DNA from: a virus
Virus record (IMG/VR): IMGVR_UViG_3300026118_000363
Location: 1 to 47,242 of that record
Reading direction: 5' to 3' (one strand)
DNA length: 47,242 nt
In this document: piece by piece, positions 6,012 to 46,074 of the stretch
Numbering within the stretch: position 1 is the stretch's first letter
Layout: every line of letters begins with the position of its first letter
Program-made: the position numbers and the translations under genes
The notes under the pieces: generated by a model
The model's input: the letters and a program-made list of their open reading frames with translations, nothing else
Databases searched by the model: none
Told to the model about the DNA's origin: nothing

Positions 6012-6244
6012 GCTCGCTTCTTCCTCTCAAGGCTGCGACTCAACGCGCGAGCGTTCATCCGCTTCCATTCCAGATTCGCGTAACAGCGGCGAGAGACTTC
6101 CTCAGGCACCACGCCTCGCGCCAGCAGTTCGACGTACTCGTCTGGCAGCGCCAGCCAGTAAATCGTGCTGCCGTCTCGAGGTAACAGCATCTCGTCTCGG
6201 ACGACTTCAGGCGTCGTGTCTACGATCGTGTGCGGCTTCAGCAT
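6008..6244 (-). CDS. Small hypothetical protein after methyltransferase
   Basis: The internal ATG at 6244 (MLKPHTIVDTTPEV) is preferred to the long upstream extension, which is antisense-like Arg/Gly-rich sequence lying under the methyltransferase gene. The 78-aa product overlaps the methyltransferase end by 7 bases and has GGAAGG just before its ATG. It contains a WLALPDEYVELLARG segment but no family is recognised. Confidence 0.5.
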   Translation of the reverse strand: MLKPHTIVDTTPEVVRDEMLLPRDGSTIYWLALPDEYVELLARGVVPEEVSRRCYANLEWKRMNARALSRSLERKKRA

Positions 6245-8031
6245 CCTTCCGCCACCTCTTCTAGATCGAATCGAATCCCACGCTGCGCGGTCCGCTTCCG
6301 TGCGAGCGGCTGATAACTCAGATCCGTGCCCACCCAGCGCCGGCCCAGCCGTTCTGCTACCGCGCCCACAGTCCCTGAGCCGATAAATGGATCGAGCACC
6401 AACCCGCCCAACGGACAGCCCGCCAGGATGCAGGGTTCTACTAAGGCTTCCGGCATGGTGGCAAAGTGGGCCGTGCCTAGTGTGGTACACTTGCACGATG
6501 GAATGTCAGCAGTGCGCGGCACCGTTCGAGCCGAAACAGAATCGGCCAGATCGTCGGCCTCCGCGTTGCTGCTCGCGGCGTTGTGCCAATCGTCTTCGCT
6601 CCACAACCGTCGTGCTGACGTGTCGGCTGTGTCGGACGCGGTTTCATCGGAAGGCCTACATGGAGACGTGGTCTCAGCAGCGCGGGCCGTTCTGCGGCTT
6701 TGCGTGCTATGCACAGTGGCAGGCGGAACACTGCGCTGGGCCGAATAATCCGAACTACCAAGCAGCAGCGTGGATCGACCTGGCGTGTGACTGGTGTGCA
6801 GCGCCGATCCGTCGGCGGCGGTTAGACCATCGACGGAACTCTGTTCGGTATGCGTTCTGTAATCGCCAGTGCTTTCAAGACTTTGCCCGCGAACGCTTCC
6901 CACGCTGGGCGATGCACTACTCTTCGAAACGGTGGCGGCGTGCGCGGCTATTAGCCTTGCAACGCGACGGGCATCAATGTCGAGGCTGCGGAGCGCCGCA
7001 CGATCTAGTTGTGCATCACCGCCGGCCTTTTGCTGACTTCGACGGCCGGCCAGAGGCGCATGAACTAGACAATCTGGAGACGCTTTGTAGGGCTTGCCAT
7101 CTGGTCCGACATAGTCAGCTGGTTCAAACGTAGGTTGCCACCCGCTATAGGGCATCGTGGGCACGGTCCACACGCTGCGCTTGTTGCGAGTCGCCTTGAC
7201 GGTCACGCTCGCCGCATTTCCGTTGCCACTCGCCGCGACGTTCATACCTGTCGCTTGCCCGCGCGAGAGGCTCTTCTCTCCAAGCGTCACGACCTTACCT
7301 GCGTGCGTAGCCGTTTCGGCCACGACGTCAGCGTCGTAGTAGTACCGCTCGCATTTGCTCAGCAGGAACAGGTATTCATGCGCTTTCGTCGGGCGATCCG
7401 TCACGCTCTCCGGCATCGGGTTCGGCTTGTGCCAGATGATGTCGGAGCGGAGATACCAGCCGTCGGCTTGGAGCGCGAACGCCACGCGCCAAGGAATGCC
7501 CAGCAGGTTCTTTGGTGCCAAACCTTCTGGAACAGCTGCTCGCCTCTGCGACAGACACACGTTGTCTGCGTGTCCGCGCCTCGAGTTCAGGGTGCTACCA
7601 CTCCTGATACCAGCTTGCTCTGTGGCCGTCATCGGACCAGCCGCATACGAATCCCCGAGGTTCAGCCACACCGTGCCGTTGTCCTTCAGCACCCGCCGCA
7701 GTTCGCAGAACACCTGCACCAGACTGGCGACGTAGGCATCAGGCGTCGGCTCCAGCCCGATCTGAGCATCGACACGAACCGCGCCGCAAAGACCGCAGAC
7801 GTCACGCCACCCGACAGTATCGGTAGCGACTCGACTGGGCCTGTTCGCGTTAAATTCTGGATTCCCAAATACCTTATTAGCTCCTGGCTTTTTGTGATCA
7901 CACGCCGGATCACCGCCTTCCCATCGCGCCGTGCCGTAATCGCGAAGGCCAAAGTAAGGAGGACTGGTGACGATACAATCCACGCAGCCGTCGATCAGTG
8001 GAAGCGAACGAGCATCCCCACAGATCAGCAT
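6238..8031 (-). CDS. DNA methyltransferase (N4/N6 type) with large internal insert
   Basis: This is a SAM-dependent amino-methyltransferase that would methylate adenine N6 or cytosine N4. Motif IV TSPPYFGLRDYG is at residues 22-33, and motif I LDPFIGSGTVG comes late (about 555), which is the beta-class order. The target region (LLGIPWRVAFALQADGWYLRSDIIWHKPNPMPE) is typical of phage and restriction-modification methylases. Residues about 300-511 are a Ser/Thr/Ala/Asp-rich insert that separates VPTMPYSG from TAHFATMPEALVEPCILAGC, parts that are nearly adjacent in ordinary relatives. That insert lies exactly opposite a plus-strand HNH gene. The frame stays open throughout, so either an enlarged enzyme is made or the insert is removed. 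Confidence 0.85.
   Translation of the reverse strand: MLICGDARSLPLIDGCVDCIVTSPPYFGLRDYGTARWEGGDPACDHKKPGANKVFGNPEFNANRPSRVATDTVGWRDVCGLCGAVRVDAQIGLEPTPDAYVASLVQVFCELRRVLKDNGTVWLNLGDSYAAGPMTATEQAGIRSGSTLNSRRGHADNVCLSQRRAAVPEGLAPKNLLGIPWRVAFALQADGWYLRSDIIWHKPNPMPESVTDRPTKAHEYLFLLSKCERYYYDADVVAETATHAGKVVTLGEKSLSRGQATGMNVAASGNGNAASVTVKATRNKRSVWTVPTMPYSGWQPTFEPADYVGPDGKPYKASPDCLVHAPLAGRRSQQKAGGDAQLDRAALRSLDIDARRVARLIAAHAATVSKSSASPSVGSVRGQSLESTGDYRTHTEQSSVDGLTAADGSALHTSHTPGRSTLLLGSSDYSAQRSVPPATVHSTQSRRTARAAETTSPCRPSDETASDTADTSARRLWSEDDWHNAASSNAEADDLADSVSARTVPRTADIPSCKCTTLGTAHFATMPEALVEPCILAGCPLGGLVLDPFIGSGTVGAVAERLGRRWVGTDLSYQPLARKRTAQRGIRFDLEEVAEGC
6479..6491. promoter_or_regulatory. Palindrome at insert junction, possible -10 of HNH gene
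   Basis: The sequence AGTGT-GGT-ACACT is a perfect 5-bp inverted repeat. It falls at the point where normal methyltransferase sequence resumes, just before the plus-strand HNH start codon. The right part contains TACACT, a fair sigma70 -10 about 7 bases before the ATG, but no good -35 is visible. It could be a promoter, an operator or a mark of the insertion event. Confidence 0.3.
6498..7133 (+). CDS. HNH endonuclease nested antisense in methyltransferase gene
   Basis: The 211-aa product is on the plus strand, entirely inside the methyltransferase gene. It has several zinc-ribbon pairs (MECQQCAAPF, CCSRRC, LTCRLC, FCGFACYAQW, LACDWCAAPI, FCNRQC) with the NPNYQ motif common in homing-type HNH proteins. 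A C-terminal HNH domain follows: RDGHQCRGCGAPHDLVVHHRRP, then HELDNLETLCRACH. The start is the ATG at 6498; an earlier in-frame ATG adds sequence that is antisense to methyltransferase code. A TACACT box lies about 7 bases upstream of the ATG. It would cut DNA, perhaps at intact methyltransferase alleles, which would spread the insert. Its function is inferred from domains. Confidence 0.8.
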   Translation: MECQQCAAPFEPKQNRPDRRPPRCCSRRCANRLRSTTVVLTCRLCRTRFHRKAYMETWSQQRGPFCGFACYAQWQAEHCAGPNNPNYQAAAWIDLACDWCAAPIRRRRLDHRRNSVRYAFCNRQCFQDFARERFPRWAMHYSSKRWRRARLLALQRDGHQCRGCGAPHDLVVHHRRPFADFDGRPEAHELDNLETLCRACHLVRHSQLVQT

Positions 8032-8282: not shown

Positions 8283-8611
8283 CAGAACAGCCCGTCTTGC
8301 TGCGGCTGTTCCGGCCGGCACAGCACCCAGGTCAACACCGTCTTGCCCGTCACATCACAGCGCCGCTTCACGCCATGCCGGATCGATCCGATGTTCTCCA
8401 ACTCATGCAGCCGTGGCCGGACCGAGTTCGGGTCGAAGTACTGATTCGGATAGCGCTGGAACATGAAGTGCAGCAACTCTAGCGCTGTCGGCGCGAAGTG
8501 CTTCGCGGCAATGAAGTCGGCCAGTTCCTGCCGGATGAACATCTGCCGCTGGTTGATCGTCGGCTGGATGTCCTGCCTGTAGACGGCTGCGGCGGTCTCG
8601 GCTTGTCTCAT
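8282..8611 (-). CDS. Winged-helix protein
   Basis: This 109-aa protein ends in a winged-helix-like module: ALELLHFMFQRYP, DPNSVRPRLHELENIGSIRHG as the recognition helix, then VKRRCDVTGKTVLTWVL as the wing. That pattern is common in small phage DNA-binding proteins acting as regulators or replication helpers. It is coupled to its neighbours by 4-base overlaps on both sides (8282-8284 and 8608-8611). Confidence 0.6.
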   Translation of the reverse strand: MRQAETAAAVYRQDIQPTINQRQMFIRQELADFIAAKHFAPTALELLHFMFQRYPNQYFDPNSVRPRLHELENIGSIRHGVKRRCDVTGKTVLTWVLCRPEQPQQDGLF

Positions 8612-9243
8612 GCAAACTCCAGCGGTAGTGCGTCCTGTTGAAGACGCTGTGCCGCGATTTCGCAGTACTGCTCGCTGATGTCGATACCGATGGCGCGTCT
8701 ACCTAAACGCTTCGCTGCAACCAGCGTCGTGCCGGAACCCATAAACGGATCCAAGATCGCCTGCACCGCTGTCGGAGCCTGCATCAGCGCCCACCGGATC
8801 ACGCTCTCAGGCTTCTGCGTAGGATGCCATCGCTTGCCATCAGCATTGCGATCTTCGCGAATGAGCTTCGCCGGCTGGTCAAAATTCGTCCACGCTAATT
8901 CAAAATCAGCCATTGTGGGCATTTGGGATGACTTGACCCACGCCAACCAGCACCGCGACGGAGGCATCGGATAGTAGTTGCCGCCCCACACCACCGCATA
9001 CTGCGCGAACGACAACAACTCGATCAGGTCAGCATCAGGGACCCGAACATCCCACCGCATCGCATCGGCGTACATCGGATCACTAGCCCACGTTCCGCCC
9101 GCCCACCGTTCACCGTGGCCGTACGGTGGATCTGTCATTAAGAGATCAAACGTGGTCGTGCGCAGGCCGCGCCACTCGTCTACCACGTCTCGACAATCGC
9201 CGTGATAAATCGTCACGCCGCTCTGCTCGTAGTAGGGCTTCAC
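8608..9243 (-). CDS. DNA adenine/cytosine-N4 methyltransferase
   Basis: The start is the GTG at 9243, which overlaps the previous stop as GTGA. The paralogue at 45391-46074 begins in the same way (RPYYEHAGITIYHGD against KPYYEQSGVTIYHGD), confirming this start. The 211-aa enzyme has DPPYG (motif IV), the HPTQKP box before motif I, and LDPFMGSGTTLVAAKRLGRRAIGIDI (motif I and SAM site). This is the compact beta-class form of phage solitary methyltransferases, probably protecting phage DNA from restriction or tagging it. The longer open frame upstream is not used. Confidence 0.85.
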   Translation of the reverse strand: MKPYYEQSGVTIYHGDCRDVVDEWRGLRTTTFDLLMTDPPYGHGERWAGGTWASDPMYADAMRWDVRVPDADLIELLSFAQYAVVWGGNYYPMPPSRCWLAWVKSSQMPTMADFELAWTNFDQPAKLIREDRNADGKRWHPTQKPESVIRWALMQAPTAVQAILDPFMGSGTTLVAAKRLGRRAIGIDISEQYCEIAAQRLQQDALPLEFA

Positions 9244-9497
9244 AGTGCCTTCACTCCTACCGCTTCCGGCAACAACCGATACTCTTTCGGCTTGTAGTGC
9301 AACTTCGTGCGGCGGCAGAAGACGTACCGCTGCCGACCAATCACCTTCACGCAAAATTTGACCGTCTCGATATTCAGATTGAGAAAGTCGGCCAGCTCGA
9401 GCAAGGTCCACCACCGCTGCAGCAGCAAGGCTTGGATCGTCGCGATGTCTCCTGGCAAGCGGTTGTCCTCCCCTGTGCGGCGCTTTCGTTGATGCAT
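9240..9497 (-). CDS. Helix-turn-helix protein, first gene after leaderless promoter
   Basis: The 85-aa product is basic and contains WTLLELADFLNLNIETVKFCVKVIGRQ, a likely helix-turn-helix or winged-helix recognition segment. Its ATG at 9497 lies only about 6 bases after the -10 box of the shared-motif promoter, so the transcript should start at the ATG without a leader. It is the first gene of a unit continuing into the methyltransferase, the winged-helix protein, the nuclease and the second methyltransferase, and may regulate that unit. Confidence 0.6.
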   Translation of the reverse strand: MHQRKRRTGEDNRLPGDIATIQALLLQRWWTLLELADFLNLNIETVKFCVKVIGRQRYVFCRRTKLHYKPKEYRLLPEAVGVKAL

Positions 9498-9503
9498 ACC
9501 GGA

Positions 9504-9532
9504 AGATTAAACCCAAACGATTCGGATGTCAA
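9504..9532 (-). promoter_or_regulatory. Shared-motif sigma70 promoter B (leaderless)
   Basis: On the minus strand TTGACA (9527-9532) is followed after 17 bases by TAATCT (9504-9509), and the ATG of the next gene begins 6 bases later. The spacer end reads CGTTTGGGTTTAATC, nearly the same as at 14395-14424 and 43500-43528. Transcription would begin at the start codon. No Shine-Dalgarno sequence is present. Confidence 0.7.
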
Positions 9533-13622: not shown

Positions 13623-13859
13623 TCATGCGACACCCGCGAGGACTTCAGGGGGAACCCCGGTGAGCGCCGCCATCTTGCGCGCTTCGTCTCTCACGACCAC
13701 GCCCACCCCACGCTCCAGGCGGCTGTACTTGCCCTGACTGAAGCCGAAGACTCGCGCGGCCTCGCGCTGGCTCAGGTTGAGGGAGAGCCGCCACTGCAGG
13801 AGGCTCTTGTGCGAGTTCGGATTGGTTCGAATGCGACTTCGTGCTACTCTTGTGCCCAT
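13623..13859 (-). CDS. XRE-family repressor-like regulator
   Basis: This 78-aa protein has a classic Cro/CI-type helix-turn-helix at residues about 20-60: LLQWRLSLNLSQREAARVFG then FSQGKYSRLERG. It lacks the C-terminal cleavage or oligomerisation domain of CI, so it is a single-domain repressor or Cro-like protein. Its promoter overlaps an inverted repeat (13860-13878), which suggests it represses itself and perhaps the divergent plus-strand genes. It heads the early minus-strand operon. Confidence 0.8.
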   Translation of the reverse strand: MGTRVARSRIRTNPNSHKSLLQWRLSLNLSQREAARVFGFSQGKYSRLERGVGVVVRDEARKMAALTGVPPEVLAGVA

Positions 13860-13926: not shown

Positions 13927-14391
13927 ATGCACATGAAGATCGCCCCCGCTCTCCTGCTCGCGCTCGTCGCCGTCCCTGCCGCCGCCACGCCGCCTGACGC
14001 GCGGTTTGCCAATGCCAAGACCGTCTATATCGAACCGCTCGACCCGCTGGAAGGCGACAGGCCGGTCGCGGCCTGCATCGCAGAGCACCTGCCGGCCGCG
14101 CTGCCGCTGACCATTGCCGCCACCAAGGAAGAGGCCGACATCGTCCTACGGGTCAAGGCCAGGATCTCAGGCGATACCATGCGGCAGCTTATGGCTGTGC
14201 TGGGTTCGATTCAGCTCTGGGCGCTGGCGCCAGATGGGACGCAGTTCTGGTCAGGGAAGACGTCAGAGGACCGCGCCAATGCGACCACGCTGCCGCCAGA
14301 CAAGGCCGACGTACCCTGCCTACTGGCCGACGCCGGGATCAACATGCTCAGAAATGCCTTAAAAAAGGCCCGGAAAAATACTTCAAAATAG
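13927..14391 (+). CDS. Exported protein of the divergent plus-strand cluster
   Basis: The 154-aa product has a clear Sec signal peptide (MHMKIAPALLLALVAVPAAA) with a probable cut after AAA. The mature part contains KTVYIEPLDPLEGDRPVAAC, EEADIVLRVKARISG and LWALAPDGTQFWSGKTSED, an alternating alpha/beta periplasmic-style domain reminiscent of small envelope proteins. Two Cys residues could form a disulfide. The ATG at 13927 has GAAAGGA just upstream. Expressed opposite the repressor, it may be a lysogenic-conversion or envelope-altering gene, which is an inference from location. Confidence 0.65.
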   Translation: MHMKIAPALLLALVAVPAAATPPDARFANAKTVYIEPLDPLEGDRPVAACIAEHLPAALPLTIAATKEEADIVLRVKARISGDTMRQLMAVLGSIQLWALAPDGTQFWSGKTSEDRANATTLPPDKADVPCLLADAGINMLRNALKKARKNTSK

Positions 14392-14394
14392 GTG

Positions 14395-14424
14395 TTGACA
14401 TACCCTAACGATTGGGTTTAATCT
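14395..14424 (+). promoter_or_regulatory. Shared-motif sigma70 promoter A (leaderless)
   Basis: TTGACA (14395-14400) starts four bases after the stop of the previous gene and is followed after 18 bases by TAATCT (14419-14424). The ATG at 14431 comes 6 bases later. The sequence TAGGTGTTGACA is identical to that at 43494-43505, and ATTGGGTTTAATC matches the other copies. AT-rich DNA upstream may act as an UP element. Confidence 0.7.
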
Positions 14425-14430
14425 CACTTT

Positions 14431-14682
14431 ATGGTCATTCACGCACGTAAGAACGGCGCCGCTAACGACCGCCGAACGCGTACCCCTCGGTGTCGCCCGC
14501 TAGGGCACATCATCGGCGGCACACGCGCAGCATGGTACGTAACATCAGATACGACCGCCGACGTCACCTGCGCCAGATGCCGACGGCTGATAGAGGCCGA
14601 CACTAAAGCTGTCGCGCCATTCGCGGACATTCCGCAGAGCGCCACTCGCGACCGTCAACTTGACATGTGGCGGCAGGCATGA
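14431..14682 (+). CDS. Small basic zinc-knuckle protein (leaderless gene)
   Basis: The 83-aa product is basic at the N-terminus (HARKNGAANDRRTRTPRC) and has DVTCARCRRLIEAD, so the Cys residues may bind zinc. It has no ribosome-binding site and its ATG lies where promoter A should start transcription. Its TGA overlaps the next gene as ATGA. The function is unknown; a small DNA-binding regulator is plausible. Confidence 0.55.
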   Translation: MVIHARKNGAANDRRTRTPRCRPLGHIIGGTRAAWYVTSDTTADVTCARCRRLIEADTKAVAPFADIPQSATRDRQLDMWRQA

Positions 14683-14942
14683 AGAAGAACCCGGTCCTGC
14701 ACGCAGCGGCTGTCGCCCTTGGTCGCAAGGGTGGCAGCGTCCGATCAGAAGCGAAAGCCGTTGCCGCTCGAGCCAACGGGAAGAAGGGAGGCAGGCCGGA
14801 AGAGGTCTGCGTCTGTGGCCATCAGCGGTCCAGCCACTTCATCACCCATACCAAGGGGAAGAAGCGCTTTCACTGGCACCAGTGCTCCTGCTGTCGCTGC
14901 CTGGAATACCAACGTGCCGAGATGTCGTCACCTCGGCTATAA
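14679..14942 (+). CDS. Zinc-binding protein with AT-hook-like basic segments
   Basis: The ATG at 14679 overlaps the upstream stop as ATGA, giving 87 aa. The first half is basic with two KGG elements (LGRKGGSVRS and GKKGGRPEE), and the second half has VCVCGHQRSSHF, then WHQCSCCRCLEYQ, a Cys/His metal site. It shares the transcript of promoter A and ends at the -10 box of the RNA candidate. Probable nucleic-acid-binding protein. Confidence 0.55.
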   Translation: MKKNPVLHAAAVALGRKGGSVRSEAKAVAARANGKKGGRPEEVCVCGHQRSSHFITHTKGKKRFHWHQCSCCRCLEYQRAEMSSPRL

Positions 14943-14943
14943 T
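14938..14943 (+). promoter_or_regulatory. -10 box before structured RNA
   Basis: A perfect TATAAT overlaps the stop region of the plus-strand gene and lies 6 bases before the first paired base of the RNA structure at 14949. The -35 position (around 14915-14920) is poor. If active, it would produce an RNA starting at the 5' side of the long stem. Confidence 0.4.
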
Positions 14944-14948
14944 TGCTC

Positions 14949-15045
14949 TCTGCGCGAGATGGCCGACCGCATCCAGAATGCGGGTTTGCCCCTTGGTCGG
15001 AAGGGCGCATCGTGGTGTCCCAGCCGCCGACCATCTCGCGACAGA
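14949..15045 (+). ncRNA. Candidate structured RNA, four-helix fold
   Basis: The two ends pair into a 14-bp stem (14949-14962 with 15031-15045, one bulged A). Inside are a perfect 6-bp hairpin (14967-14972/14978-14983, 5-base loop), a 5-bp hairpin CCCTT/AAGGG (14990-14994/15001-15005) with loop GGTCGG, and a weak 4-bp hairpin (15014-15017/15025-15028). The loop GGTCGG is complementary to CCGACC at 14963-14968 and at 15027-15032, so a pseudoknot is possible. It lies between the convergent plus and minus gene clusters, outside any supported gene. It is not a tRNA and matches no ribozyme I know. The strand is uncertain; plus is favoured by the TATAAT box. Confidence 0.45.
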
Positions 15046-15055
15046 TTCAGGTAAA

Positions 15056-15280
15056 TCAGTGTGGTTTCTTCTCTGGCGAATCGAAGAGCCGATCTAGACG
15101 ATCCATCACCTGCTCCCATCGCCGCCACTGCTTCTCGCGCAGGTCCAGCGGTTGCCCGCGCATCCCCTCAGTGAACATCTCGGCCAGTGCCTTGACCGCG
15201 AGCGCCCATGCCGTGATCGGATCTATGGCGTCACCCCTTGCTTCACGACCACCAACCCCTGTCGCTTCATCGCCACGCAC
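15056..15280 (-). CDS. Small helical protein, start uncertain
   Basis: The frame encodes up to 74 aa from a GTG at 15280. The likely folded part is DPITAWALAVKALAEMFTEG followed by a charged helix (LREKQWRRWEQVMDRLDRLF). The first 58 bases overlap the HNH gene in another frame, so the true start may be later, but no ATG, GTG or ribosome-binding site there is convincing. No family is recognised. Confidence 0.45.
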   Translation of the reverse strand: MRGDEATGVGGREARGDAIDPITAWALAVKALAEMFTEGMRGQPLDLREKQWRRWEQVMDRLDRLFDSPEKKPH

Positions 15281-15558
15281 AACGCCCGTTCAAAGACGTC
15301 CTTGCGATACGATGCCGCCTGCTCCTGCCACTGCAAATTGTCCACGACATCGACCACGGCCCCACCTGAACAATATGGCACGACGTGATCGACCACCCAT
15401 CCCGGCCGTCCGTTCGGGTAGCCCGTCTGCCGCCTGAATTGGTTCATGGCTGGCGTGGGCGCTCGCTTGGTGCCGACCTCGATGTCGAGGCTCATGTCTA
15501 CGTCTGGCACCTGCAGCGCGCCTGCCAGCAGCACCGCAGCCAGTATCCCTCTCATCAT
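15223..15558 (-). CDS. Secreted-type HNH endonuclease
   Basis: This 111-aa protein starts with a short hydrophobic signal (MMRGILAAVLLAGALQVPD). It then has YPNGRPGWVVDHVVPYCSGG, the beta-beta-metal His pair, followed by DNLQWQEQAASYRKD. This matches the short HNH family with the DH..P..GG...NLQWQ signature, members of which are often exported. Context is a block of small membrane proteins below the spike. It could degrade DNA outside the cytoplasm, for example competing DNA, or be a nuclease used at the envelope; both are inferences. Confidence 0.72.
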   Translation of the reverse strand: MMRGILAAVLLAGALQVPDVDMSLDIEVGTKRAPTPAMNQFRRQTGYPNGRPGWVVDHVVPYCSGGAVVDVVDNLQWQEQAASYRKDVFERALCVAMKRQGLVVVKQGVTP

Positions 15559-40813: not shown

Positions 40814-43471
40814 CTAGGAAATCTGCACGGAATGCCCACGCTCAATGGCCGACCGGTGCGACACATCCCGGCTCAACTGCCGCACGACTGCCGCCTTATC
40901 GTTGCAGAAGATCTGCGCATCATGCCTGCCGCGGGACAGACTGACATAGGCCAGCCGCTGATTCACCAGCGCTTCCGGTGATCGGCCCGTGTCGATATGC
41001 AGCAGCACGCGATCTGCTGTTTGCCCCTGTGCGCTGTACGACGTCACCGCGTACCCGTAATCGAGATGCGCGTACTCCTTCAACCGGAACCCGACGCTGC
41101 GTCCTGATTCGAGCTTGACCCGCATCGATGATGGCGTCATGGCTGCAACCGTTCCAAGCTGGCGATTCGACACCTTCTTGTCGGTGTACGGTGCCGTGAA
41201 CTGGATCCGATCCCCCACCGCGAATGATCGTTCCTGCGGCCGGTAAACGCTGGCTGTTAATCGTTTCGGATCGTAGGTCAACTCGCGCCCGGTCTCGAGC
41301 CTCACAGTCAGCAAGTTCTGCTTCGCATCCGCCTTGATCACCGTGGCGTAGTCTCGCGCCTTGACGCCATGCACCGTGCTCGTCTTCGCATACCGCACCA
41401 CATCGCCCGGTTCGTACTTCGCCGCCCAGGCACGATCAGGTCCGGTCAGATCCTGCCGTGGAACCAGCACCTGCGTGGTGTGCGCCTTCTCCCGTATCGC
41501 GCCCGTCTGAGTCAGCGCAGTATGGATCGCCTGATTCAACTCGGTCCGAGCCTTGTTGTCGGGCGCTACGATAATCGTGCCCTTAGGCTCCGAGACGAAA
41601 GCCTGTGCGACCGCGGCCAACCGGTCCGATTCGCGCGGTACCTGATGCACGCGCCCCATGTCGTCAAACGCCCTGAGCGCGGCCGCGGTTTCACCCTTCG
41701 CCAGTTGCTCAACAGCCTGACGGTATGCCGGATCTGCCTGCCTCACAATCGTGTCGATGCGCGCCGTCTGCACGCCGGCCTCCTGTAGTTGCTCATAGAT
41801 CCGGCCAGCTTCCACGCTCTGATGCTGCCGCACATCGCCCACCAGCAGCACGCGATCGTCCTTACCCAGCGTCGTCAGGAACTGATGCATCTGCACCGTG
41901 CTACTCAGCGAAGCTTCGTCCAGCACGTATAGGTGCCGTCCTGGCTGGCGCTCGTCTTGGAGATGCCGCTGCAGCGTCTGGGATTCGATCCCTGACGTCG
42001 CCAGGACCTGCGCCGCTCTCGACGTTGCGGCCACCCCATGCACCTGATACTGCTCGCGCTCTGCAGCCTCTTTGACCACGGCTAGGGCTGTCGTCTTCCC
42101 GCCGCCGGCCACCCCTTCTAGTGCTTGCACTGTGTCGCGATTGGCCAGCACCTGCGCCAACGCAGCCCGCTGGCCGGCATTCAGGTGCGGCGCCTCGACC
42201 ATCTGGGCTAGTGGCTGCTGCTGGCCCTTCCCAGCCTGCATGGCCTGGATGGTTTCACGCTCGAGCCGCACCATCTCTGGCGTGGTAAAGGCTCTGGCTG
42301 GTGCCGTGCCGTTGGACCGCTGTAGAAGGTCGCATGTCTCCACGCGCCGTTCCATCTCTGCCTTCAGCGGTGCCACCGTGGCAAGGCCCATCGTCCGGAC
42401 CAGCGCATCACGCATGATGGCCCGCTCGTCTACAACGGCTGAGCGCTCAATATTCCGTTCCGTGGCGTACGTGATGGCGGTCTTCACCAGTTCGCCGCGG
42501 TCCGGTATCGCCTGCTGTCCTCGCGCCTGTGCGGCCGCAACAGCCTTCGAGGCTTGATGTCCAAACTGCGCCGCCATCTCCTGATGCTTCGCTTGCATCG
42601 CGTCGTGCGCGTGCTTGACCTTGGCTTCGCGCGTCTGCAGGGCGATGGCATGGGACGCTGCCGAGCCATGCAGTTGCGCCTTCTCGAGCGCTTCCTTGAT
42701 CTGTTGCGACCTCGGCGAGCTGGCCTCCATGTACTCGGCTGAGATGCCGCGGATCTCCGGCACGTCGCGCTTATGCCCGCCGCGATCAATCTGGTAGCCC
42801 AGCGCCCGTAGCCTGCTGGCGAGCTCAGCCCGATAGACGGCTGTGGCGTACGGCTGGGACTTGTACAGTTCTCGCGGTTGCAGCGAGCGCATCCGCCCGT
42901 CCGCAAGCCGCGTCATGTTGAACAGGACCGCATGCGTGTGTATCTGGGGCGCTGCATACCCTTGGACAGGTCTACTGCTGTCGTGCTCGAAGGTAACGCC
43001 CACCATCTGTCGCGTGGTCTCTGGCACATGCGCCCCGCCGACTCGCGCCTGTGCGTGGCGCTCCAGCTCCTGCAACGCCACCTGTACGGCTTCCCGATGC
43101 GCCTGCACAACACGCGAATCACCACCGACGAGACCCACAAGCGAGACCGACTTCGGCGCAGAGAAGGTAGCATCCCAACCCGCACGATGCAGCATCGGAT
43201 CGATCCGCTTCCCGGCCTCATCGACGTAGGAGCCTGACGCCTGGATGCGGATCAACTGCTCGCCTGTGATGGGATGCTTGCCCTCGGCCAGCCGTGCCAT
43301 CTGCTCGAGGTTCACATCACCAGACAGGCCGAAAGATGCGGCCAGCGCACCCCGCCACTGGCCCTTAATGTCGGCACCCGCGGAATAGTAATTCTCGGCA
43401 GAGTTGCTGTATTCTTGCTGGTGATAGGCCACTAACTGCTTGGCCGTTAACGGGTTAGAGATTCTCAGCAC
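40814..43471 (-). CDS. MOB-F relaxase-helicase (TrwC/TraI type)
   Basis: The 885-aa protein nicks one strand at an origin of transfer and unwinds DNA for conjugation. The relaxase part (1-300) has Tyr 16, 21, 28 and 29 as candidate nicking residues, WDATFSAPKSVSLVGLV, FEHDSSR (His 163) and QIHTHAVLFN (His 178, 180), the three-His metal site. The helicase part has a Walker A EGVAGGGKTTALAVV (about 450), LYVLDEASLSSTVQM and a C-terminal YAVTSYSAQGQTADRVLLHI (motif VI region). Length is near R388 TrwC (966). It starts with GTG at 43471. No relaxase of this kind is expected in a normal tailed phage; here it pairs with the coupling protein above it. Confidence 0.93.
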   Translation of the reverse strand: MLRISNPLTAKQLVAYHQQEYSNSAENYYSAGADIKGQWRGALAASFGLSGDVNLEQMARLAEGKHPITGEQLIRIQASGSYVDEAGKRIDPMLHRAGWDATFSAPKSVSLVGLVGGDSRVVQAHREAVQVALQELERHAQARVGGAHVPETTRQMVGVTFEHDSSRPVQGYAAPQIHTHAVLFNMTRLADGRMRSLQPRELYKSQPYATAVYRAELASRLRALGYQIDRGGHKRDVPEIRGISAEYMEASSPRSQQIKEALEKAQLHGSAASHAIALQTREAKVKHAHDAMQAKHQEMAAQFGHQASKAVAAAQARGQQAIPDRGELVKTAITYATERNIERSAVVDERAIMRDALVRTMGLATVAPLKAEMERRVETCDLLQRSNGTAPARAFTTPEMVRLERETIQAMQAGKGQQQPLAQMVEAPHLNAGQRAALAQVLANRDTVQALEGVAGGGKTTALAVVKEAAEREQYQVHGVAATSRAAQVLATSGIESQTLQRHLQDERQPGRHLYVLDEASLSSTVQMHQFLTTLGKDDRVLLVGDVRQHQSVEAGRIYEQLQEAGVQTARIDTIVRQADPAYRQAVEQLAKGETAAALRAFDDMGRVHQVPRESDRLAAVAQAFVSEPKGTIIVAPDNKARTELNQAIHTALTQTGAIREKAHTTQVLVPRQDLTGPDRAWAAKYEPGDVVRYAKTSTVHGVKARDYATVIKADAKQNLLTVRLETGRELTYDPKRLTASVYRPQERSFAVGDRIQFTAPYTDKKVSNRQLGTVAAMTPSSMRVKLESGRSVGFRLKEYAHLDYGYAVTSYSAQGQTADRVLLHIDTGRSPEALVNQRLAYVSLSRGRHDAQIFCNDKAAVVRQLSRDVSHRSAIERGHSVQIS

Positions 43472-43535: not shown

Positions 43536-43742
43536 ATGAACAACACACACAACGTCACCGCCGACCTGACGAAGGAACTCGAAATCGTCCGCACCATCAA
43601 GTCCCTACTGGTTGAACGGGACGCCATCAAGGCCAAGTTCGATTGCAGCGATGCATCATGGCAGGCACTGTTCGCTGTCGAAGCGAAGATCAATGCTGCT
43701 GGCGGAATGCACCTCATCGGAACCACCTACAACGAAGACTAA
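43536..43742 (+). CDS. Small helical protein between relaxase and coupling genes
   Basis: The ATG at 43536 is preferred to an earlier in-frame one that lies inside the promoter. The 68-aa product MNNTHNVTADLTKELEIVRT is acidic and helical (SLLVERDAIKAKFDCSDASW). It has no ribosome-binding site and the promoter places the transcript start at the ATG. Its TAA overlaps the coupling-protein stop on the other strand by two bases. It breaks the usual coupling-relaxase pair and may regulate transfer. Confidence 0.55.
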   Translation: MNNTHNVTADLTKELEIVRTIKSLLVERDAIKAKFDCSDASWQALFAVEAKINAAGGMHLIGTTYNED

Positions 43743-45394
43743 TCCGTTACCAGCGGTGGCAGGGCTTCCACAGCCTGCCGCCGCGGCACCGGAGGCCGAG
43801 CCACCAGTGCCGGCTGCACCGCAGGTCGCTCCACATACGGGAACCGCAGCGGCGTCACGCGGTTGCCCACCTTTAGGTACCCCGTCAGGTTCGCCAACCC
43901 GCTGATCTCGCTGGGCAGCACAAGCGGCTCCACCTGTCGCTCAAGCCGATACGTCCACGTCCGCGTACGCGCCCAGCCGTCTTGTTGGCTGGGCGCCAGC
44001 CGCTCCTGCTCCACCTCGCCGATGGTCTTCGAGGCCCACTCTGCCGCCTTCGCATCGCTGGCTCGCAGGAAGATCTTGGTGGCCGGCTGCGACAGCATCG
44101 TCTCGGCGTCCTTGCCGTACCGGGATTCCATCTGCGCCCGTCCCTGGAATCCGATCACCATCGCCAGTTGCGACTTGCGCCCTTCCGTCACCGCCGTATG
44201 CAACTGCGGCAACTTGTTGAGCGTCGAGAGTTCGTCCACCGCCAGCCATGTCTTGCGCCCGTCCGGATGGTTCATCAGGCGCAGGATCAGCGAGTCGAGC
44301 CAGAGCGTCTGGAGCGGCACCAGCCGCGCTCGCGTCTCAGCCGTGCTGGTGATGAAGATCCAGCCGCTCCGAGTCGTGGCCCATTCCGCCGCGCTCCATC
44401 GTCCTACGCTTTGCTGTGGTGTCGGACAGAGTTGCAAGGTATCCGCGACAAGGTTCAGCGAGGCCAGGATCCCGCTTCGCTGGGCAGGCGTCCGCGACAA
44501 GATGGCGGCATGTGGACTGCCAGCGATCTGCTGGTCCAGCGCATCCTCATTCGTCAACCACGCCACCAGTTGTTGTGCTGTCGGATCGAAGGTGAGCAAG
44601 TGCGCGAAGATGCCGCGAGCGCTCTCTGTGAAGAAGGTATTACTCTCGTACGGCCGCGGTGGAAACAGCGCCGTCGCCAGCGTCAACGCCTCGACGTCGT
44701 TCAGGATCTCATCCCCAGGCTTCCAGTAGGGGCATCGTGCATCGACCGGATTCAGGATCACATCCCCACGTTCAGGCCGGTAAAACCTCGTCACGTATTC
44801 CAGCGCCGGATCGTAGACGATGGACGTCTCGTCCCGCTCTGCCACCGTCTCGAGGATCTCCGAGATAAGCGTAGATTTGCCGGTCCCGGTGTCGCCGGCT
44901 AGCAGGATGTGGCTCGTCTCGAGCGCTCGCGGAATCACGACCGGTGGCCCGCTCACCTGCCGGAAGGCGATCCCGTCGGCGCCCTTCGAGAAGGTCCGCG
45001 CCGTGATGCGCTCTGCGCCCTTCAACCTGCGCCCAACGCGCCGCTGGATGGCCTGCCGTCGGTCCACCGGCAGCGCTGCCACCACGAAGAGCACCAGCAA
45101 TCCTGCGCCCCAGTAGAGCGGAGGCTGGATCAATTCCGTGACGAACAGCCCGCCGTACAGCTCGTCTCGCAGGAGATCCCGCGCAGGCACTGTGCGCTTC
45201 GGCATCCAGCCGACATCGGCTAGCAGCGAGTGCCGCAGGTACGTGCCGAGGTACGCCCGCTGGATCGGCGCCATGCTCGCAAGGTAGAACCAGACCGCTG
45301 CAACAGTCGCCATGACGCCGAGACCGAGCGCCGACAGCGTCCAGACTGGCCAGATGGACATCCACCGGCCAGCCGTGGCATTGCGTCCGTTCAA
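43739..45394 (-). CDS. Type IV coupling protein (TrwB/TraD/VirD4 family)
   Basis: This inner-membrane ATPase should bring the relaxase-DNA complex to a type IV secretion channel. Two membrane spans come first (PVWTLSALGLGVMATVAAVW and LYWGAGLLVLFVVAALPV). Then come LLAGDTGTGKSTLISEIL (Walker A), SIVYDPALEYVTRFYRPE, DVILNPVDARCPYWK, TWLAVDELSTLNKLPQLHTA (Walker B), VTEGRKSQLAMVIGFQG and EISGLANLTGYLKVGNR, all TrwB-type marks. I take the TTG at 45394, which overlaps the methyltransferase stop; the ATG at 45361 is the alternative. No channel genes are in the window. Confidence 0.9.
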   Translation of the reverse strand: MNGRNATAGRWMSIWPVWTLSALGLGVMATVAAVWFYLASMAPIQRAYLGTYLRHSLLADVGWMPKRTVPARDLLRDELYGGLFVTELIQPPLYWGAGLLVLFVVAALPVDRRQAIQRRVGRRLKGAERITARTFSKGADGIAFRQVSGPPVVIPRALETSHILLAGDTGTGKSTLISEILETVAERDETSIVYDPALEYVTRFYRPERGDVILNPVDARCPYWKPGDEILNDVEALTLATALFPPRPYESNTFFTESARGIFAHLLTFDPTAQQLVAWLTNEDALDQQIAGSPHAAILSRTPAQRSGILASLNLVADTLQLCPTPQQSVGRWSAAEWATTRSGWIFITSTAETRARLVPLQTLWLDSLILRLMNHPDGRKTWLAVDELSTLNKLPQLHTAVTEGRKSQLAMVIGFQGRAQMESRYGKDAETMLSQPATKIFLRASDAKAAEWASKTIGEVEQERLAPSQQDGWARTRTWTYRLERQVEPLVLPSEISGLANLTGYLKVGNRVTPLRFPYVERPAVQPALVARPPVPRRQAVEALPPLVTD

Positions 45395-46074
45395 CTCGAC
45401 ATCTCCAATGGAAGCGCTTCCTGCCGTAGACGTCTCACGGCCATCTCGCAATAGCGTTCTTCTAGGTCAACACCAACCGCCGTGAGTCCTAAACGCTTAG
45501 CAGTGGCGAGAGTCGTTCCGGACCCCATAAACGGATCGAACACAGACCGAGCCGAAGGCACCATCCCAAAACACCACTCAATCAAGGCTTCAGGTTTTTG
45601 CGTCGGATGCTCGCGGTACTTTCCTCCTGCCGTCTCCGCTTTACTGCTCAACGTGAACTTCATCAACCGCTGATCTAATGATGTCCACGCCAGCTCTCCG
45701 TGCGAAAAATTCGTGGTGTGTTCGAACAACTTGTCCCAGAACAACCATCCGCGAGAAGGCGGCAGCATGTCGGCAAAATAATTACCGCCCCAGATAATGT
45801 GTTGACGTGCTACAGCTAAAAGTGCCGCCATCAGATCAGGCGCAGGACGACTATCGTCCCAGGCTCCAGACTCATATTTAGGCCCGAACTTATAGGTGTT
45901 AGGACGGCTGGGTTTCGTGCAATGAATAGCACGCGCACAGTCGATCCCGTAGGGCGGATCAGTGAGCAGAAGATCGAACGGCTTATCACCCCAATGTAAT
46001 CCCAACGACTCAAGTACGTCAGCCGCATCGCCGTGATAAATCGTGATCCCGGCGTGCTCGTAATACGGCCTCAC
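45391..46074 (-). CDS. DNA adenine/cytosine-N4 methyltransferase (paralogue)
   Basis: The GTG at 46074 overlaps the RHH gene as GTGA. The 227-aa enzyme has ITIYHGDAADVLE, LLLTDPPYGIDCAR (motif IV), HPTQKPEALIEW and VFDPFMGSGTTLATAKRLGL (motif I), the same frame as the enzyme at 8608-9243. The insert after motif IV is longer (IHCTKPSRPNTYKFGPKYES), so the target may differ. By eye the gene is AT-richer than its neighbours, hinting at separate acquisition. It separates the RHH and coupling genes. Confidence 0.85.
   Translation of the reverse strand: MRPYYEHAGITIYHGDAADVLESLGLHWGDKPFDLLLTDPPYGIDCARAIHCTKPSRPNTYKFGPKYESGAWDDSRPAPDLMAALLAVARQHIIWGGNYFADMLPPSRGWLFWDKLFEHTTNFSHGELAWTSLDQRLMKFTLSSKAETAGGKYREHPTQKPEALIEWCFGMVPSARSVFDPFMGSGTTLATAKRLGLTAVGVDLEERYCEMAVRRLRQEALPLEMSS

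Follow-up and report, generated by a model that had tools for sequence, protein, structure and literature searches.

A 97-nt hairpin at positions 14949-15045 of the window, by which we mean the whole 47,242-nt stretch of viral DNA analysed here (IMG/VR record IMGVR_UViG_3300026118_000363), is conserved and structured and matches no catalogued family. It stands between the stop codons of two converging groups of genes and recurs at the syntenic place in a related phage. Its conservation and structure are concluded from a fold that beats shuffled sequences and from counterparts in that phage (G009) and, more weakly, at a second locus (L131). On the best reading it would be a known kind of element in a new sequence family, and we give roughly an even chance to its being a hairpin without a U-tract that acts as a 3'-end barrier or stabiliser for two opposing transcription units. 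A second record, IMGVR_UViG_3300005719_000013 (62,894 bases), contains the window sequence identically and so is not independent evidence; it looks circular, since its two ends share 120 identical bases.

Fold of the element and choice of strand

The element and its parts are as follows.

14949-15045, minus (late-operon) strand favoured: long-stem hairpin element, with a z-score of about -4 on both strands and syntenic counterparts at L105:1305-1387(-) (in G009) and L131:4838-4921(-)
14949-14962, plus strand: 5' arm of the closing stem, TCTGCGCGAGATGG, identical at 13 of 14 positions to the G009 copy
15031-15045, plus strand: 3' arm of the closing stem, CCATCTCGCGACAGA, with a bulged A15041 and the same bulge in G009
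15014-15024, plus strand: GGTGTCCCAGC motif adjoining the 3' arm, identical in L131 and reading GACGGCCCAGC in G009

An earlier, sequence-only reading had described a closing stem with one bulged A (A15041), a 6-bp hairpin (CCGCAU/AUGCGG), a 5-bp hairpin (CCCUU/AAGGG) with the loop GGUCGG, and a weak fourth stem (GUGGU/GCCGC), and each of these is present in the sequence and in the computed fold. The two CCGACC copies of that reading are likewise present, at 14963-14968 and 15027-15032. The higher-order features built on these parts fared less well: the GGTCGG loop that was to form a pseudoknot with CCGACC is missing from G009 and L131, and is therefore not conserved, while in place of the four-way junction both relatives are predicted to fold as a rod in which the inner hairpins of the window are missing. 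Beside the 3' arm, UCCCA or CCCA is unpaired in the predicted folds of all three copies (window, G009 and L131).

The segment has a minimum free energy of -50.7 kcal/mol, corresponding to a z-score of -4.19 (-4.05 in a second run, none of 1000 dinucleotide shuffles being as low), and its raw energy ranks about fourth-lowest among 6735 segments of 97 nt taken in 7-nt steps along that strand. Its reverse complement reaches -52.4 with a z-score of -4.26, again below every one of 1000 shuffles; because it folds at least equally well, folding energy lends no support to the plus strand on which the RNA had been placed. Across all three copies and both strands, z-scores range from -4.05 to -5.99 against shuffles.

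The plus-strand assignment itself is not borne out, since the minus strand, that of the late operon, folds better in every copy (-52.4 against -50.7, -56.5 against -50.7 and -51.9 against -46.3). On that strand the A.C and C.A mismatches of the window and L131 turn into G.U and the stem is continuous in both. The mismatches resolved to G.U and the greater stability in all three metagenomic copies favour, without proving, the late-operon strand as the functional one.

Part of the interior has a further copy in the window. A 26-nt stretch of the upstream gene (14706-14731, the LGRKGG region) recurs at 81% within the element (14980-15005), yielding the hairpin CCCTTGGTCG[CG]AAGGG twice in the window, a duplication not seen in the relatives.

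The element was rightly called undescribed as far as Rfam is concerned, for no Rfam 15 family was found in the window at the gathering threshold or at E<=10, and G009 and L131 gave sub-threshold chance matches only. Nor is it a tRNA, as had been stated: ARAGORN finds no tRNA or tmRNA. Canonical intrinsic termination was looked for in the flanks of all three copies, and no U run follows the hairpin on either strand. A protein-coding gene covering the segment was also sought and the coding interpretation was rejected: the overlapping frames match no family, no frame is conserved, and those stem bases that are conserved lie in one frame in the window and in another in G009.

Genomic setting

The element fills the junction between the late operon on the minus strand and a short unit on the plus strand, which agrees with its earlier placement between convergent genes. 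The neighbouring features in the window are these.

13623-13859, minus strand: HTH repressor-like gene, left bound of the plus-strand unit, with a homologue in G009
14395-14422, plus strand: sigma-70-like promoter TTGACA-16-TTTAAT (11/12), recognised by eye, upstream of 14431
14431-14682, plus strand: small gene of the short plus-strand unit
14679-14942, plus strand: small cysteine-rich (zinc-finger-like) gene, the last of the unit, whose stop lies 6 nt before the element
14938-14943, plus strand: TATAAT, overlapping the stop codon of the upstream gene and not conserved
15056-15280, minus strand: last gene of the late operon, convergent, ending 10 nt from the element, with a 48% identical homologue at the same place in G009
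15223-15558, minus strand: HNH-like gene of the late operon

By a rough gene call, nearly all well-supported genes of the window lie on the minus strand, the exception being the plus-strand unit at 13927-14942 beside the repressor-like gene, and well-supported genes switch strand nowhere but at the junction with the element; the remaining switches look like shadow frames. Distances from stop codon to element are 6 and 10 nt in the window, 6 and 6 nt in L131, and 4 and about 250 nt in G009; on one side the element begins 4-6 nt past the stop of three unrelated genes, and two of the three copies have the late stop at a distance of 6-10 nt.

The cysteine-rich gene has no Pfam match. The promoter at 14395-14422 was missed by our promoter scan, the rule of which requires an A at position 2, and its presence makes 14431-14942 look like a moron, that is, an accessory unit with its own promoter. 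The locus resembles bacteriophage morons and their terminators in having a promoter-like site, small accessory genes and a terminal hairpin; it differs in that the hairpin has no U-tract and is followed in G009 by another gene on the same strand. Immediately ahead of the TATAAT, at 14916-14937, the upstream gene holds a second small hairpin, GCCGAGATGTCGTCACCTCGGC, at its 3' end.

Elsewhere the window holds three N6/N4-type DNA methylase genes (6238-8031, 8608-9516 and 45391-46074), whose matches cover different portions of the Pfam model; in two of the genes the C-terminal DNA is related, 81% identical over 53 nt (8702-8754 against 45488-45540).

Counterparts in related phages

The covariance search that had been proposed for homologues did find relatives, and in these three of the four variable closing-stem pairs are altered at both positions. 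Model R1, derived solely from the window sequence, matched G009 (IMGVR 3300005844_000061, with a capsid protein 66% identical) at L105:1305-1387(-), with an E-value of 0.012 in a search of 306 kb and of 0.00096 in one of 25 kb. The place is syntenic, comprising the repressor-like gene, the element, the homologue of 15056-15280 (48%) and a DUF1376 gene, and the stem (UCUGCGCGAGAYGG/CCRUCUCGCGACAG) agrees down to the bulged A, except for a single U-A pair replaced by C-G. Between window and G009 the arms are more alike than the interior.

A third, weaker match came from loci around the DUF1376 gene (L131:4838-4921(-), 16.9 bits, E 1.7 in 507 kb), and its arms differ in sequence from those of the window and G009. 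We count it as a counterpart because it occupies the same place in a convergent gap, 6 nt after a stop, with GGTGTCCCAGC in register; it also shows several compensatory changes in the stem. A 10-mer within GGTGTCCCAGC occurs five times in about 2 Mb of sequence, and the similarity between window and L131 was equalled in 2 of 5000 shuffles. Comparable alignment scores were obtained at other places in the same contigs. A model of window and G009 together (R3) did not recover the L131 element, so its counterpart status is probable, not proven. In the three-sequence alignment used for covariation, which is limited to the inner stem, six of the ten pairs are invariant, three have changed at both positions and the last is A.C in L131, and 96.7% of cells are paired compared with 22-54% in slid controls.

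No copies beyond these three were found among the further relatives searched. Several candidates were dropped: stem-pattern hits across all viral contigs were, apart from window and G009, one-off and unlike the element outside the pattern; a palindrome with a similar bulge in L135 sits within a coding frame; and weak model hits in L211 and L104 lie inside genes resembling tail or structural genes. BLAST matches in 42 of 396 Acidobacteriota genomes were likewise set aside, the best six being GC-rich coding text (for example a penicillin-binding-protein-like motif) and not hairpins, and model R2 found nothing in the Acidobacteriota genomes.

A proposed 3'-end hairpin shared by convergent units

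GC-rich hairpins without U-tracts are common at bacterial 3' ends, where they have been read as the product of Rho termination and trimming back to the hairpin, REP-like elements at such ends being cited in the same work (PMC13289151). Hairpins without U trails, some common to opposite strands, have also been classed as I- or X-shaped terminators (PMC8355165), and a report cited there describes U-less terminators in phage phiC31. The present element fits this class by its position at stop codons, its lack of a U-tract and its folds usable on both strands: it is a GC-rich hairpin just downstream of the stop codons of opposing genes. It shares with the bacterial hairpins its length, GC-richness, distance of few nucleotides from the stop, convergent setting and folding on both strands, and is unlike them in its 97-nt size, its internal conserved UCCCA, its large apical part, and in the conservation of sequence and synteny among phages.

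We infer that the element is transcribed and that 3' ends form there. The units that meet would be the long late or structural operon on the minus strand and the short, repressor-side accessory unit on the plus strand, and transcripts from either side would end within or just beyond the hairpin. The hairpin might either slow the polymerase or block 3'-to-5' exonucleases after termination downstream, which would probably be Rho-dependent, and as a joint 3'-end element it would prevent each unit from running antisense into the opposite one. The stem of 14-18 bp would be the working part and the variable interior less important; the unpaired UCCCA, which reads UGGGA on the opposite strand, may be a protein-binding site or a mere structured internal loop.

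Several observations argue against this account. There is no U-tract or intrinsic terminator on either strand; in G009 an ORF with a ribosome-binding site begins on the same strand 16 nt past the element and would be silenced by a strong plus-strand terminator; a plain terminator requires nothing as elaborate as the interior and the UCCCA motif; and L130, close kin of L131, lives without the element.

Alternative explanations

The hairpin might act as DNA, as a recombination or cassette-end site resembling attC, or as a protein-binding palindrome, bounding variable accessory genes. This is unlikely. One argument for it is the comparison of L130 with L131. The two share 91.6% DNA identity across the late genes and 95.8% across the integrase, yet L130 is without the 783-bp stretch L131:4854-5636, which contains a pair of small genes together with the greater part of the hairpin, one stem arm being left; the deletion indicates that the hairpin travels with the accessory genes and is dispensable to the L130 lineage. 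The position 4-6 nt behind unrelated accessory genes in all three phages and arms more alike than the interior (window against G009) are also as expected of a DNA site. With integron attC the element shares an imperfect palindrome of similar length just past a stop codon and an extrahelical base, but the core boxes (R'' GTTRRRY and R' RYYYAAC), sought by direct reading in all three copies, are missing from the arms. There is no integron integrase, the arms are not common to L131, each genome has a single copy, no recombinase adjoins it in the window, and mismatches that resolve to G.U on one strand suit RNA better than DNA. As a separate observation, the segment separating L130 (5509/5510) from L131 (4854-5636) adjoins a tRNA-like attP, and one breakpoint falls within the hairpin stem.

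A stand-alone small regulatory RNA, made from its own promoter or by processing of a 3' UTR and binding a target or protein through the unpaired UCCCA/UGGGA, is a slightly poorer candidate again. The conserved structure with its conserved unpaired motif beside the stem would suit such an RNA, as would the TATAAT just upstream in the window, where the hexamer occurs twice. That motif was correctly reported, although it ends 5 nt before the stem and not 6; as a promoter it fails, for it has no -35 box, the scan at that site found no promoter-like site with one, and neither G009 nor L131 has it at the corresponding position. No conserved -10/-35 promoter was found upstream of the element in any of the three, the interior hairpins are not conserved, and there is no Rfam relative. 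As neither a conserved promoter nor the pseudoknot, the junction or the plus strand is supported, a stand-alone small RNA is less likely than a joint 3'-end structure.

That the hairpin is a palindrome arisen by chance in GC-rich DNA, its look-alikes in two relatives being coincidences, we regard as improbable. There are three copies only, one of which escapes the model of the other two, and scores of that order recur in the same contigs. Against coincidence stand the synteny and near-identical stem of G009, down to the bulge, the 11-mer of L131 in register with a similarity rarely reached by shuffling, and the compensatory changes in the stem.

Still less probable is a processing hairpin of the sib type, in which RNase III cleavage of a read-through transcript would set the stability of the upstream message. 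In phage lambda the gene order is int-attP-sib, and L131 resembles it in having an integrase, a tRNA-like attP, accessory genes and, downstream of attP, a long hairpin in this sequence; the length of the double-stranded stem and its place where a unit ends would suit cleavage too. Yet such a hairpin would need an integrase upstream, and one is seen in L131 only, none lying there on the plus strand in the window or G009; RNase III cleavage here is hypothetical.

Conjugation genes and the transfer-origin hypothesis

Besides phage terminase, portal and capsid genes, the circular genome of about 62.8 kb encodes a MOBF relaxase and type IV secretion proteins: a TrwC-type relaxase, a TrwB coupling protein and VirB4-, VirB6-, VirB10- and VirB11-like proteins.

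40814-43471 and 43739-45451, minus strand: conjugation genes within the window
L109:265-7988 and L108:18226-19185: conjugation genes in the rest of the genome

TrwC gave one partial match only among 50,697 phage records, and none was found in 38 other records of relatives of the phage. This may be a phage that conjugates, or a chimaeric assembly. The relaxases closest to 40814-43471(-) belong to Acidobacteriota plasmids (Granulicella tundricola and Acidisarcina polymorpha, 42-48% identity), hinting at an Acidobacteriota host, while a search with the major capsid protein returned matches of 42-44% in Pseudomonadota only and none in Acidobacteriota. Three Acidobacteriota plasmids (L251, L252 and L253) have in common a block near GACACTCCATCCCTTCCAGGGTGGTGT, next to a small inverted repeat in the gap upstream of a trwA-like gene, which is likely the oriT of that relaxase clade; no block of this type is in the phage.

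The nic region of R388 consists of a hairpin, 8 nt and T/ATAGCC, and the minus strand of the window reads hairpin stem, 8 nt, T/ATAGCC. This likeness, in a genome with a MOBF relaxase and type IV secretion proteins, suggested that the hairpin might be the origin of the phage's own transfer, a reading that we consider very improbable. The window has just two TATAGCC sites, one of them exactly at the element, and no other plausible nic site was found near trwB and trwC; but the motif is not at that place in G009 or L131, in whose incomplete records no relaxase was found, the plasmids of the closest relaxases have another conserved block upstream of trwA, the hairpin greatly exceeds known MOBF hairpins in length and lies 26 kb away from the relaxase gene, and the match was noticed after the fact. 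Equally far-fetched is the fuller proposal that the phage conjugates, its TrwC-type relaxase binding the hairpin and nicking T/ATAGCC 8 nt past the stem, with decayed or variant origins as the counterparts in other phages.

Significance

The element adds a hairpin family that is conserved but absent from catalogues, situated at the convergent junction of soil-type phages. If 3' ends do form there, it would offer a concrete case of phages insulating late from lysogenic transcription without canonical terminators.
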